NCBI RefSeq assembly: GCF_022814725.1
Contig: NZ_CP093442.1
Location: 3,348,001-3,412,000 of the forward strand
Reading direction: 5' to 3'
DNA length: 64,000 bases
Origin: Bdellovibrio reynosensis
GTDB taxonomy: Bacteria; Bdellovibrionota; Bdellovibrionia; Bdellovibrionales; Bdellovibrionaceae
The position numbers and the translations under genes are program-made. The notes under the pieces are model-generated. The model did no database searches, had not been told where the DNA came from, and saw nothing but the letters and a program-made list of their open reading frames with translations. Positions within the stretch are counted from its first letter, which is position 1; each line of letters opens with the position of its first letter. Positions 17,630-22,086 of the stretch are shown one piece after another.

Positions 17630-18076
17630 CTATCGATCAGCTTTTTTCCAAACACAAGTGTAAGGCAAAGAACCTTGAATATCGTGTGTTAGTTCTAGCT
17701 TCAATTTGCTGACCGTCGCAGTAGATTTAATGTTGGATGTAATCTTACCACTGCAAACTTCTTGATTGATTCTTACTAAAGTCGTTTCATCAGCAGAATT
17801 CTTTTCGTGAATTGTTTGTTCGCGGAACTCACAGTTCGCATCTAAATCAGACTCTACAACTTTTTGTGAGTTCTTAGCATCAAAGCGGTAGGAACCACCC
17901 AAGGCTAAATATTTTTGTGAAACCGCTTTTGCGCTAAAGTTTAATTCATCAGCGCAAAGGTCTTTTTCGCCAGCAACAAGTTCGTATCTGCCAGCTTCAA
18001 GTAAAGTCAATGTTTGCGCTTGCGCTGAAAAACCCATGAACAAAGATAAAGCTAAAACTATATTTCTTAGAAACAT
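17630..18076 (-). CDS. Small secreted protein of unknown function
   Basis: A signal peptide (MFLRNIVLALSLFMGFSAQA) precedes a mature region of about 128 residues. Four Cys residues are visible (KDLCADE, DANCEFRE, QEVCSGK, YTCVWKK), suggesting two disulfides. No domain is recognised. The start overlaps the end of the lysozyme-like gene by 10 bases, so it is probably the second gene of that two-gene unit and may act with it. Confidence 0.7.
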   Translation of the reverse strand: MFLRNIVLALSLFMGFSAQAQTLTLLEAGRYELVAGEKDLCADELNFSAKAVSQKYLALGGSYRFDAKNSQKVVESDLDANCEFREQTIHEKNSADETTLVRINQEVCSGKITSNIKSTATVSKLKLELTHDIQGSLPYTCVWKKADR

Positions 18077-19152
18077 AAAGCAAATCTCCTCATTTGTGGT
18101 CTGATTTGGTCAGCACCTCTTCTTACCGGACCCCAGTAACTTGATGAACTGACCCCAGTGCGGCCTTTACTTAGCGAAGTCGAAGCAAGGATGTCAACCG
18201 CACAGCGGGCCTGTTTCGCAGCGGTGTTGATGCTGCGGCAAGCAGCTCCTCGCCAAGCGCGCACGTTCGCATCTTTTTCTAACGCCCATAAGCCGTAACC
18301 TTGGTAGGGATTTAAACGACTTAATTTTCCGTTTCTCCAAATGTGTGTGCCATGCAGTTGCGTGACGTTACAGCTCGATTCTTCGTGAGCAAGGACAGTC
18401 CAAAACCAAGCCCATGCATTTAGTTTTTGCGCTGTCGATAAAGTATTAAACTTCGGGCAGAAGCTGCCTAAGGCGTTACTTCCTAAAAAGTGACGAGCGT
18501 AATTAGGTTCTGCCATAATAGAAACTAAACTTTGACCATGTTCACCCAGCTGACCTTGTGAATTCATAAGAGCACTGCAAGCTCTGGCTACGCCATAACC
18601 ATTTAAAGTGGAGCGAGCACCAGTTGTTGTATTCGAAGAGCACTGCGTGCAATTCTGACCTTGGCCATTCACACGGCTGTTGGTGTTATTTATTAAATCA
18701 ATAGCGTCACTGACTTCGCCGCGCGGGGCAGGGCTGGGAACTGGAACCTGTGTCGCAGGAACATCTTTTCTAGTTTCCGCACCTTTTGCTTTCTCAATAG
18801 ATGAAGTGCTGCGTGATGGGCCTTTCCCATTCGGAACCTCTTCAAAAAGTGCTAACTCAGAATTTCCGACTTTGTGATAAACCCAAAAAACTTCACCAGC
18901 GCGAGGGCCCGCGCTTACTTTCATCTTAATGCCGTAATTTCCTGAAGGAAGTTTTGTGTAAGCAAGGATTTCCCCGCGAGTGCCTTTATTTAAAACTGTG
19001 CGCACATTGTTTGAACCAACAAAATTAGCAGAGCTTCGGGCATTCACGGCGCCTTCAAGTTCAACGTACTTTTCTTTGCCGGTAAATCCTGCCAGAAAAA
19101 CCGTGCAAAGCAGGCTTGAAATAATGGGTTTAATAATCTTTTTGCTCATCAT
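18067..19152 (-). CDS. Exported SH3-like plus lysozyme/transglycosylase-like protein
   Basis: I choose ATG 19152 (or 19149) because MSKKIIKPIISSLLCTVFLAG then forms the signal region. An SH3-type segment follows (VELEGAVNARSSANFVGSNNVRTVLNKGTRGEIL, given here only as its position 30-90), a Ser/Pro-rich linker, and a C-terminal domain from about residue 170. That domain has AWFWTVLAHEESSC, where the Glu pair is the probable catalytic acid of a lysozyme-like fold, then NPYQGYGLWAL and ARCAVDILAS. It carries several Cys residues. Such proteins cut glycan strands. It is divergent from the L,D-transpeptidase modules, so the area is a wall-enzyme cluster. Confidence 0.7.
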   Translation of the reverse strand: MMSKKIIKPIISSLLCTVFLAGFTGKEKYVELEGAVNARSSANFVGSNNVRTVLNKGTRGEILAYTKLPSGNYGIKMKVSAGPRAGEVFWVYHKVGNSELALFEEVPNGKGPSRSTSSIEKAKGAETRKDVPATQVPVPSPAPRGEVSDAIDLINNTNSRVNGQGQNCTQCSSNTTTGARSTLNGYGVARACSALMNSQGQLGEHGQSLVSIMAEPNYARHFLGSNALGSFCPKFNTLSTAQKLNAWAWFWTVLAHEESSCNVTQLHGTHIWRNGKLSRLNPYQGYGLWALEKDANVRAWRGAACRSINTAAKQARCAVDILASTSLSKGRTGVSSSSYWGPVRRGADQIRPQMRRFALCF

Positions 19153-19524
19153 AAGAAAAAGACTATGCAAGCTTTGATACAGATCTTTCGATTTTACGTT
19201 TCGCCTTTGTTTTCATCGGCTTAAGCTGATTAACTGCAAAATCTGAAAACACCTCTAACAGCCCTGAAACGGAAAAGTGTCACTGTCCTGATCAAGGTCT
19301 AGACATGAATTTCGTTCTGATGATTTCAAAATGAGACATTTAAATTTCTGACTAATATATGGAGGCGGGTGTTCATAGACTTATCAATAATATGACAAGT
19401 CCCTGATATATCTTATTCTTCCTGATGCAGATCCTTTATACAGACTTAGACTTAAATCCCTAAGTATCTTCAGTATTTTCTGTGTCACTTGCTAAATTCC
19501 ACAATTTTTCTACAATTAAAAAAC
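19153..19524. other. Divergent intergenic region with an imperfect inverted repeat
   Basis: The 372-base AT-rich region separates the lysozyme-like gene (-) and the transpeptidase module (+). It holds an imperfect inverted repeat, GACTTATCA (19378-19386) and TGACAAGTC (19393-19401), and CTTAG...CTAAG at 19445-19464. I see no convincing -35/-10 pair and no coding sequence. Confidence 0.45.
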
Positions 19525-20421
19525 ATGAAAAAACTAATACTTTTTATCGTTATTGTATCTAGTAGTAGTGCTTACGCTTTTACACGCAGTAATTCGATCA
19601 GCATGCTTGATGATGATGGAACGGATTACACTTCTAACTATACTTCAAAACCGGCAGCAACAAGTGGTGGCGGCGGAAGCGGGAGCACAGGTCCTGGCAT
19701 TTATGATGAACTTAATAGATATGAACCCTTCAGAAATGCTTTCGCGCAAGAAGGAAGCTGTGATCATGTACCTACTCAAGTAAGAAAAGCATTCTCTGAA
19801 GCCGTGGATTTTTCTAAATCCTGCGGAGCTGCTAGATTGGCTCCGGGTAAAAAAATTGCCATCAATGATTATTCAGGCCAAGGACATTCGTTGATGTACA
19901 TATTCGATCAAAATGGATCTTGTATCAAAGCGATTCCAATTTCTTGGGGTGGTGGTAATCCGCGCACGGGAAGAATGGAAGCCTGCAGTACTGAAAATTC
20001 ACGTAAAACTCCACCAGGATTTCATATCACAGCGGCACACAGGAACGGCGCTAAATATAACCAATATAATTCTTTAGGCTTAGCAGGTCTTTGTGGCCAG
20101 AACAGTTTAGGAGAGCGTGGAATCTTAATTCACGGATCGCGCGGGGTCGGCCGTGGATCTTCATGGGGTTGTACAGGCGTACCAAACTTCAGTGAAGTCA
20201 ATCAGCTCTTAGGCGTTGGCTCGTTGGTATATAACTATTTCGGCAGTAAGGGACAGAATAACTGTAGTGATCCATCGGGATTTGAGCCGCGTTGTGAACC
20301 AGAAGCTTTGGCTTACCAAGCCGCCAATGAATCCCATGGTGGGGGCGTTTCACGTGAATACCGCGGTTCATCAAGTGGCAGGGCGAATGGAAGTGGCCGT
20401 GGCAAAAGAGGAGCCCGCTAA
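19525..20421 (+). CDS. Exported L,D-transpeptidase-like protein, module copy 1
   Basis: The start at 19525 gives a signal peptide (MKKLILFIVIVSSSSAYA); an upstream in-frame TTG at 19489 is less likely. A Gly/Ser-rich linker leads to the catalytic domain: FSKSCGAARLAPGKKIAINDYS, IPISWGGGNPRTG, TPPGFHITAA, then His203 in ILIHGSRG and Cys216 in SSWGCTGVPN. This is the murein L,D-transpeptidase (YkuD_2) pattern. The last ~30 residues are Ser/Gly/Arg-rich. Its stop overlaps the ATG of the small partner gene by one base. It pairs with a near-copy at 20862, a tandem duplication. Confidence 0.82.
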   Translation: MKKLILFIVIVSSSSAYAFTRSNSISMLDDDGTDYTSNYTSKPAATSGGGGSGSTGPGIYDELNRYEPFRNAFAQEGSCDHVPTQVRKAFSEAVDFSKSCGAARLAPGKKIAINDYSGQGHSLMYIFDQNGSCIKAIPISWGGGNPRTGRMEACSTENSRKTPPGFHITAAHRNGAKYNQYNSLGLAGLCGQNSLGERGILIHGSRGVGRGSSWGCTGVPNFSEVNQLLGVGSLVYNYFGSKGQNNCSDPSGFEPRCEPEALAYQAANESHGGGVSREYRGSSSGRANGSGRGKRGAR

Positions 20422-20783
20422 TGAAAGCACTATTAATACTAACTTTATTTTTTTCAATGAGCGCGTTCGCAGCTGAAAATGAAAAATCAGTTGTTGCTGA
20501 AAAACCAAAAGCTGCAGTGGTGGAAGCTGAAACAGAACCGCCTATTATTAAAGGCACAGATATCGAAGTTGATTCCTATGATGCGCCCACTGACACGTTT
20601 GAAGTCGTTATTGTGAAAGAGCCTGGTGTGGGACCCAATATCGCCACCAGCGATGATCTTTTTAAAGCTACCGGGATCGATCCAGAAAATAAAAAGAATA
20701 AGGATTTAGTCGGTTCGACTTTTAAACTGAAAGAAGAATTGAAGTTGCTTACTGAGGAAGAAGCAGCGGCTAGAAAGAAATAA
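20421..20783 (+). CDS. Small exported partner of the L,D-transpeptidase, copy 1
   Basis: The 120-residue product has a signal peptide (MKALLILTLFFSMSAFA). The mature part has a Lys/Glu/Ala-rich segment and then a conserved core: EPPIIKGTDIEV, TDTFEVVIVKE, GVGPNIAT, LFKATGI, LVGSTFKLKEEL. The second copy at 21778 shares this core at roughly half its positions. It is translationally coupled to the transpeptidase (TAATG). I know no family for it. A regulator, substrate or wall-anchor partner of the enzyme is plausible. Confidence 0.7.
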   Translation: MKALLILTLFFSMSAFAAENEKSVVAEKPKAAVVEAETEPPIIKGTDIEVDSYDAPTDTFEVVIVKEPGVGPNIATSDDLFKATGIDPENKKNKDLVGSTFKLKEELKLLTEEEAAARKK

Positions 20784-20794
20784 TTTTTTAGAGT

Positions 20795-20817
20795 CCCAGC
20801 TTCGGTTGGGATTTTTT
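20795..20817 (+). terminator. Terminator between the two transpeptidase modules
   Basis: CCCAGC-TTCG-GTTGGG forms a 6-bp stem with a stable tetraloop, followed by ATTTTTTG. It would separate module 1 from module 2. Confidence 0.75.
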
Positions 20818-20861
20818 GTGCGTTCATTATAAACATGCAATTGTTCACCAAAAAGAGACTT

Positions 20862-21776
20862 ATGAAAAAAATAATTTTGTTATCGCTGTTGATAGGTTTT
20901 GAGGCCTTCGCTTTTTCAAAAAGTAGCGCTACGAAACTTCTGACACTAAACGGACGTATTGGCGGAGGCGGTGGGGGAGGAAACTCTCAGTATAACGATC
21001 TTCCTTCTGGCAGTTGTGGCAATGTTCCTGCTCATATTAAAAAAGCGTTTAATGAATCGATAGCTTTTACTAAGTCATGTAGTGCAGCGCGAATCGCAAG
21101 TAACAAGATGGTCGCCATAAATGACTTTTCTGGTGTGAATAAACCCATGATTTATATTTTCGATCTTCAAGGCAATTGTAAAAGAGCGACAGGAATTTCC
21201 TGGGGACGTGGAATTCCTCGCAGAGACTCTATAAATATGTGCAGCAAGTATGGTTCGCTTAAGACGCCGCCAGGATTCCACATCACGACTCCTTACAGTG
21301 GTGTTAAGTATGATAATTCTAACAGTTTAGGTTTGGGAGGATTGTCGGGCCAAGACAGTTTGGGCCGTGGAATCTTACTTCATGGTAAATGGTATACTGA
21401 TGGAGCCAACACGTATGGTTGCATTGGAGTTCCCGATGCCGAACTACAAGATATTAAATCCCTACTTGGTCATGGTTCGCTAGTGTATAATTATTCAGGC
21501 GACCGTCAGCAAAGCGATTGTAGCAATCCTGCCGGGGTTAAGCACACTTGTGACCCAGAACAAAGAGCTAGCGAAGCCTTGAGAAATTCCGGGGGAGGTA
21601 AAGAAGTACCTCGATCTAAAGAGTTTGTTTTATCATCCCCGCCAGCAGAGAAAAAGGTAACGCCAGCTCCTGAAAAAACAGAAAAAGTGGTTGTTGAAGA
21701 AGAAAGAACTGAACGACGAGCACCGGTTGAAGCAACTGAAGATGATGATGTTGGAATTGATGGAGGCGGGATTTAA
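20862..21776 (+). CDS. Exported L,D-transpeptidase-like protein, module copy 2
   Basis: The start at 20862 (MKKIILLSLLIGFEAFAF, signal peptide) is preferred to 20835. The catalytic domain matches copy 1: FTKSCSAARIASNKMVAINDFS, GISWGRGIPRRD, TPPGFHITTP, His174 in ILLHGKWY, Cys187 in NTYGCIGVPD. The usual Ser two residues before the Cys is Thr here. The C-terminal ~70 residues are Pro/Glu/Lys-rich and low in complexity, unlike the Arg/Gly tail of copy 1. The stop is followed after one base by the start of its partner. Confidence 0.82.
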   Translation: MKKIILLSLLIGFEAFAFSKSSATKLLTLNGRIGGGGGGGNSQYNDLPSGSCGNVPAHIKKAFNESIAFTKSCSAARIASNKMVAINDFSGVNKPMIYIFDLQGNCKRATGISWGRGIPRRDSINMCSKYGSLKTPPGFHITTPYSGVKYDNSNSLGLGGLSGQDSLGRGILLHGKWYTDGANTYGCIGVPDAELQDIKSLLGHGSLVYNYSGDRQQSDCSNPAGVKHTCDPEQRASEALRNSGGGKEVPRSKEFVLSSPPAEKKVTPAPEKTEKVVVEEERTERRAPVEATEDDDVGIDGGGI

Positions 21777-21777
21777 T

Positions 21778-22086
21778 ATGAAATATTTAATAGGTTTTAT
21801 TCTGATTTTTTCTCTAAATGCAAACGGCCAGAAAGCCGCGAATAAAGTACGCTCTGAACCACCCATAAAAAAAGGCGCTGTCATTGAGATCGAAGAGTAT
21901 TACACAGAGTCTGATACTTTTTCAGTCGTCATTACCACTGAAAGAGAAGTCGGACCTAACATCGCGACCCGTAAAGCTTTGTTTAAAGCAATTGGCTTAG
22001 AAGGCAAAGTGAAGAAAAGCGATCTAATCGGTGCGGAATACACCTTAAAAGAGGATCTTCCGTTAATTGCTCCAGAAAATCCTTAA
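21778..22086 (+). CDS. Small exported partner of the L,D-transpeptidase, copy 2
   Basis: The 102-residue protein begins MKYLIGFILIFSLNANG, a signal peptide; GGAGGCGGG just upstream fixes the start here. An in-frame upstream ATG inside the previous gene at 21691 is rejected. The core SEPPIKKGAVIEIEEY, SDTFSVVITTE, EVGPNIATRKALFKAIGL, LIGAEYTLKEDL matches the partner at 20421. It ends six bases before the convergent cyclase gene, with no room for a clear terminator. The function is unknown. Confidence 0.7.
   Translation: MKYLIGFILIFSLNANGQKAANKVRSEPPIKKGAVIEIEEYYTESDTFSVVITTEREVGPNIATRKALFKAIGLEGKVKKSDLIGAEYTLKEDLPLIAPENP

Follow-up and report, generated by a model that had tools for sequence, protein, structure and literature searches.

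L,D-transpeptidases (LDTs) are mostly regarded as single-protein enzymes, and to our knowledge dedicated, genetically fixed partners of such enzymes are hardly known. Among the wall enzymes of Bdellovibrio a described arrangement pairs an endopeptidase with its inhibitor: Bd3460 inhibits the DD-endopeptidases Bd3459 and Bd0816 for self-protection (PMC4686830). Strain HD100 encodes 17 YkuD-fold enzymes besides Bd0886 and Bd1176 (PMC12546842), and in the YkuD-fold LD-carboxypeptidase Bd1075 a C-terminal NTF2 domain positions or targets the enzyme (PMC8938487). We describe a locus of Bdellovibrio reynosensis in which two putative LDTs each have as gene neighbour a small exported protein from a hitherto undescribed family.

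Gene organization of the locus

The window, i.e. the whole 64,000-nucleotide stretch of DNA that was analysed, lies on a 3.58 Mb chromosome assembled as a single contig. Between positions 17630 and 22086 a lysozyme pair on the minus strand diverges from two tandem LDT-partner modules on the plus strand. The former comprises P0004 (18067-19152, minus strand; 361 aa), a lysozyme-like exported protein with an SH3-like N-terminal region, recognized by a profile match in its C-terminal half, and the small exported protein P0005 (17630-18076, minus strand; 148 aa), with adjoining homologues in other genomes; the two genes overlap by 10 bases. Module 1 consists of LDT1 (19525-20421, plus strand), an exported YkuD-type L,D-transpeptidase with a basic C-terminal tail, and partner1 (P0001; 20421-20783, plus strand; 120 aa), a small exported protein defined by profile and structure model, their genes sharing one base. 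In module 2 a one-base gap separates LDT2 (20862-21776, plus strand), likewise an exported YkuD-type enzyme but with an acidic Pro/Glu C-terminal tail, from partner2 (P0003; 21778-22086, plus strand; 102 aa), which is small and exported, was assigned by its similarity to partner1 and lacks the basic tail found in related proteins. Both LDTs were assigned by weak Pfam matches and by motif.

These six genes had been proposed in an initial annotation and hold, with their coordinates, as do the catalytic pairs that it assigned to LDT1 (H203/C216) and LDT2 (H174/C187). It had also described the modules as alike in order, coupling and sequence while differing in their C-terminal tails, and this is borne out. 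LDT1 and LDT2 are 41% identical (E 1e-66) and partner1 and partner2 42% (E 5e-24), values at which the resemblance is not due to chance. The ends of LDT1 (GKRGAR) and partner1 (AAARKK) are basic, and those of LDT2 (IDGGGI) and partner2 (IAPENP) are not.

Because a predicted intrinsic terminator, a strong hairpin with a run of T after it (20790-20817, plus strand; -14.4 kcal/mol, z -4.3), lies between the modules, these are probably separate transcription units; the terminator was not listed by the consensus scan. A recent tandem duplication in the B. reynosensis strain was considered and is not supported: LDT1 is closer to the enzyme of genome G021, the nearest relative found (57% identity), than to LDT2 (45% in this comparison). 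An origin in a mobile element was rejected: LDT1 had no match in plasmids or phages and the partner none in viral contigs, and the GC content of the genes is unremarkable.

The Pfam YkuD and YkuD_2 profiles match LDT1 and LDT2 weakly (E 1e-5 to 4e-3). Relative to the curated YkuD cut-off of 23.4 bits LDT2 scores 23.5, and LDT1, with 21.0, falls below it. YkuD_2 is matched by 10 of 12 members of the LDT family (best E 3.8e-9), and the relatives in G007, G038 and G021 exceed the curated cut-off of that profile. The catalytic His and Cys are conserved, with a spacing of 13-16 residues. The enzyme of G042 has no Pfam match, yet it carries the motif HASGGPTHGC; that of G266 belongs to a different YkuD subfamily, and one relative has a weak match to Tlde1_dom (E 0.13). 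In the model of a homologue that is naturally fused to its partner, the YkuD domain resembles YkuD, LdtMt1 and LdtMt2 (VIA Z 9-10; 104-130 residues, rmsd 2.7-3.6), and Bd1075 and DpaA also lie near VIA Z 9. A YkuD fold is predicted on this basis for LDT1 and LDT2, the model being that of the fusion homologue. Their cross-linking activity stays putative, since YkuD-fold enzymes can be LD-carboxypeptidases, as exemplified by Bd1075 (PMC8938487).

The partner family

A first profile, made from both partners of the window, identified relatives in 10 of the 66 genomes of the family. Widened partner profiles were applied to 369 genomes of the phylum, and the neighbourhood of each strong copy was read. 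There are 16 strong copies, in 15 of the 369 genomes, and in all 16, distributed over four families, an LDT gene lies beside the partner or contains it. The partner is directly downstream of the LDT in 13, both window copies included, and in eight the genes overlap by 1-4 bases. A one-base overlap, TAATG, is found in module 1 of the window and in G021, G008, G011, G005, G007 and G038; the overlap is of four bases in G042, the genes abut in G245, and gaps of 1, 9, 18 and 72 bases occur in module 2 of the window, G035, G023 and G266, respectively. The LDT and partner genes of G217 are adjacent but convergent, one of them being inverted, and in G203 and G204, which belong to another family, LDT, linker and partner domain form a single polypeptide. 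In families f5, f7 and f9 the partner has been kept although the LDTs are highly divergent, and more distant YkuD genes in partner-bearing genomes (L035, L036, L040, L041, L042) have no adjoining partner. Pairwise distances among the LDTs and among the partners correlate with r 0.87 (0 of 10000 permutations), a value to which shared descent contributes. Matches at E 1e-3 to 4e-4 in G014, G130, G170, G312 and G315, mostly to a signal sequence or a stray stretch, were not counted.

As judged from these comparisons of sequence and gene order, it is nearly certain that LDT and partner constitute a dedicated unit, and the pairing together with the fusion indicates a protein devoted to assisting or guarding the enzyme. 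The enzyme-partner module of the initial annotation thus recurs beyond the strain, and a restriction to this strain, which that annotation had named as grounds for refutation, is not observed. That annotation had further supposed the system to be new; for the partner family we found no description in the open-licence literature, and no relatives in Pfam, NCBIfam, PHROG or the PDB. The LDT module is missing from G003, which we take to be Bdellovibrio bacteriovorus HD100, and data obtained with HD100 are consequently not transferable to it. We also observed in G007 (L026, 608-1722) a weak relative of the partner whose gene overlaps by four bases that of an exported protein without family assignment.

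Residues 41-120 of partner1 were modelled at a pLDDT of about 90 as a mixed beta structure (DSSP), in the order strand-strand-strand-helix-(helix)-strand-(strand), which is compatible with a small OB-like barrel, a five-stranded fold with a helix between the third and fourth strands. Among known folds the cold-shock proteins came closest, at a score that does not identify the fold (VIA Z 4.6; rmsd 3.4, 65 residues aligned). Foldseek returned no significant match in the PDB or among viral models, so that the fold gives no indication of a binding function. A match of the partner profile to PDB entry 7on6 was dismissed as an artefact: it is a designed repeat protein, and no stretch passed alone. 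No ankyrin match was found among 13 partners. In the model of the fusion protein (pTM 0.50) the linker has a pLDDT under 50 and the partner forms a separate domain at about 90, the contact between the domains being without confidence. The EPGVGPN core of the partner is conserved alongside very different LDTs.

Of the 13 free-standing partners examined, 12 have Lys or Arg as their last residue, versus 27% of 111 neighbouring genes; four of the 12 end in Arg, partner2 ends in Pro and the fusion in Asn. Most LDTs, too, have a basic tail. In module 2 (21600-22086) neither protein has the basic C-terminus that nearly all relatives keep. This joint loss is at most a hint that the two tails have a common function and that the role of module 2 is now a different one.

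The lysozyme pair and the variable site

The C-terminal half of P0004 matches a clan of DslA-type proteins from the same genome (hhalign probability 98.7, E 2.6e-16), one member of which matches DslA (6TA9) at 4.6e-18; directly, P0004 matches 6TA9 with an E of 0.065. By way of this intermediate profile P0004 qualifies, at the sequence level, as a homologue of DslA. The description of P0004 as a lysozyme-like SH3 protein stands in part: the profile match to the clan favours the first term, without a family match, and the SH3 region has no support in Pfam, although proteins from other Bdellovibrio genomes contain the same region. Full-length relatives of P0004 exist in ten other genomes and relatives of P0005 in nine of these, so that the pair is present in 10 of 11 genomes, its genes always overlapping by 10-16 bases. 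P0005 matches no Pfam family; its homologues have a conserved Cys and the motif SDLDxxCEF. A candidate homology between P0001 and P0005 was discarded as hhalign aligned only the signal peptides. Elsewhere in the same genome (L011, 1234-2643; C1:3550815-3554018, minus strand) a 469-residue protein combines YkuD_2 (E 3.5e-47) with a DslA-like lysozyme region.

The initial annotation had treated all six genes as a single wall-remodelling system, and this view was abandoned. A long distance separates the two kinds of pair in G023 (LDT near 2.28 Mb, lysozyme near 2.93 Mb), G007 and G038; the lysozyme pair occurs singly in G004, G012, G015, G016, G017, G018 and G022, and the LDT pair in G005, G008, G011 and G021. 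They are hence not one conserved system: the lysozyme pair is a unit in its own right, built on similar lines and found at the same variable site.

The site is flanked by a cyclase-like gene and TerC, which lie near each other in several genomes; between them, adjoining LysR in the relatives, the contents differ. G003, G021 and G014 have an SLT transglycosylase whose gene overlaps that of a small exported protein. G023 has a lysozyme pair, as do G004 and G016, in which the cyclase is replaced by a YiiX-like gene. G007, also with a YiiX-like neighbour, has an LDT pair in tandem with a degenerate second pair, and the window has the lysozyme pair with two LDT pairs. From these differences it follows that pairs of wall enzyme and partner are exchanged at the site.

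Three of these arrangements are worth recording. The SLT transglycosylase and small exported protein of G003 (L113, 1980-3709), with a 13-base overlap, are a further candidate enzyme-partner pair. In G014 (L117, 1858-6819) two proteins with weak likeness to ankyrin and an exported nuclease come after the SLT pair, an arrangement that may represent enzyme-guard cassettes. The second pair of G007 (L115, 4509-5763) consists of a degenerate YkuD-like protein (H...WACIGVP), which matched no Pfam family, and a 193-residue partner-like protein.

Role of the partner and comparison with described systems

The reading that we favour, and to which we give an even chance, is that the partner is an accessory subunit, for docking or positioning, acting in trans with its LDT. 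Since the stop codon of the one gene overlaps or abuts the start codon of the other, the exported enzyme and partner would be made in step; in the periplasm the partner, a predicted small beta-barrel with a basic tail, would bind the LDT or the neighbouring wall, and once bound could position the enzyme or switch it on. It may thereby do in trans what the C-terminal NTF2 domain of Bd1075 does in cis. The wall acted on may be the predator's own or that of the prey; the initial annotation had suggested the prey wall, bdelloplast resealing and self-protection as possible targets or roles. An accessory role is favoured because of the natural fusion, the persistence of the partner with very different LDTs and the lack of clear orphans; the constant association, the inversion in G217, the correlated distances and the partnerless distant YkuD genes also speak for a partnership. 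On the other side stand the contribution of shared descent to the correlation, the low-confidence contact in the fusion model, the lack of a fold match in the PDB and the weak partner relative that adjoins another exported protein in G007.

An order with the enzyme first and an overlap would suit effector-immunity pairs too, and the main rival to an accessory role is self-protection, the partner being a periplasmic inhibitor that would keep the LDT inactive until its delivery to the prey wall. We consider this unlikely, though a serious contender. The layout matches that of bd3459-bd3460, where the guard gene follows the enzyme gene, and the same authors predict that an LDT and an ankyrin protein, Bd1181-Bd1180, form a pair of the Bd3460 kind (PMC4686830); immunity proteins are known for LDT-like effectors, as for Tlde1 of the type VI secretion system (PMC9638812). 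The patchy distribution of the module would suit such a guard, as would the other wall-enzyme pairs at the site, including the one followed in G014 by two weakly ankyrin-like proteins. Yet an inhibitor fused to its own enzyme, as in two genomes, would need processing, the partner is not an ankyrin protein, and its EPGVGPN core is constant while the LDTs differ greatly. Orphan genes are common for immunity proteins, and clear orphan partner genes were not found in the 369 genomes. Nor is it as evident for a cross-linking enzyme as for a hydrolase that the producing cell would be harmed. Alternatively the partner might be a substrate, its C-terminal lysine being linked by the LDT to peptidoglycan in the manner of Braun's lipoprotein to yield a wall-anchored protein. 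The attachment of Lpp to the wall by LDTs is established (PMC10653827), and the excess of terminal Lys and Arg agrees with it; but the partners ending in Arg, the Pro of partner2 and the Asn of the fusion do not, and with basic tails on the LDTs a general electrostatic role fits equally. As an account of the family this is improbable, wall attachment through a C-terminal lysine being possible for some partners only. That the two genes are mere co-transcribed neighbours, kept together by chance or co-transfer and with no physical partnership, we regard as very improbable: presence in 15 of 369 genomes suits the gain and loss of a cassette, whereas association in every strong copy across four families, together with inversion and fusion, does not.

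Returning to the accessory subunit, we propose tentatively, and with rather less than even confidence, a new two-component unit for wall remodelling, in which a class of LDTs in the Bdellovibrio phylum would have this undescribed periplasmic family as its obligate subunit, encoded in a cassette-swapping interval and perhaps among the tools for the prey wall. LDTs form cross-links that most penicillin-type drugs miss, and a conserved partner would be a handle on their location or control; it would also bear on how a predator edits walls without self-harm. The variable site in addition offers a few more candidate pairs of wall enzyme and partner.

Compared with known YkuD enzymes (PF03734, PF13645; Bd0886, Bd1176, Bd1075) the LDTs described here share the predicted fold, the catalytic His and Cys and the export signal. 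YkuD enzymes usually read GCxR at the catalytic Cys, whereas these have GCTGVP or GCIGVP, and they differ further in several conserved extra cysteines and in the dedicated partner gene. P0004 brings its lysozyme-like half into the wider clan of the DslA-type lysozymes (Bd0314, 6TA9; PMC7511926), from which it is distinguished by the additional N-terminal SH3-like region and the overlapping small partner gene. The modules resemble Bd3459-Bd3460 in that the gene of an exported wall enzyme precedes that of a small protein which is exported too; Bd3460, however, has ankyrin repeats, in contrast to the predicted small beta-barrel of the LDT partner, and its enzyme Bd3459 is a DD-endopeptidase. Finally, the Tlde1/Tldi1 pair of the type VI secretion system (T6SS) is likewise made up of an LDT-like enzyme and a small protein encoded beside it (PMC9638812), but unlike Tlde1, which is delivered by the T6SS, the LDTs and partners carry Sec-type signal sequences, which suggests that there is no link to contact-dependent secretion.
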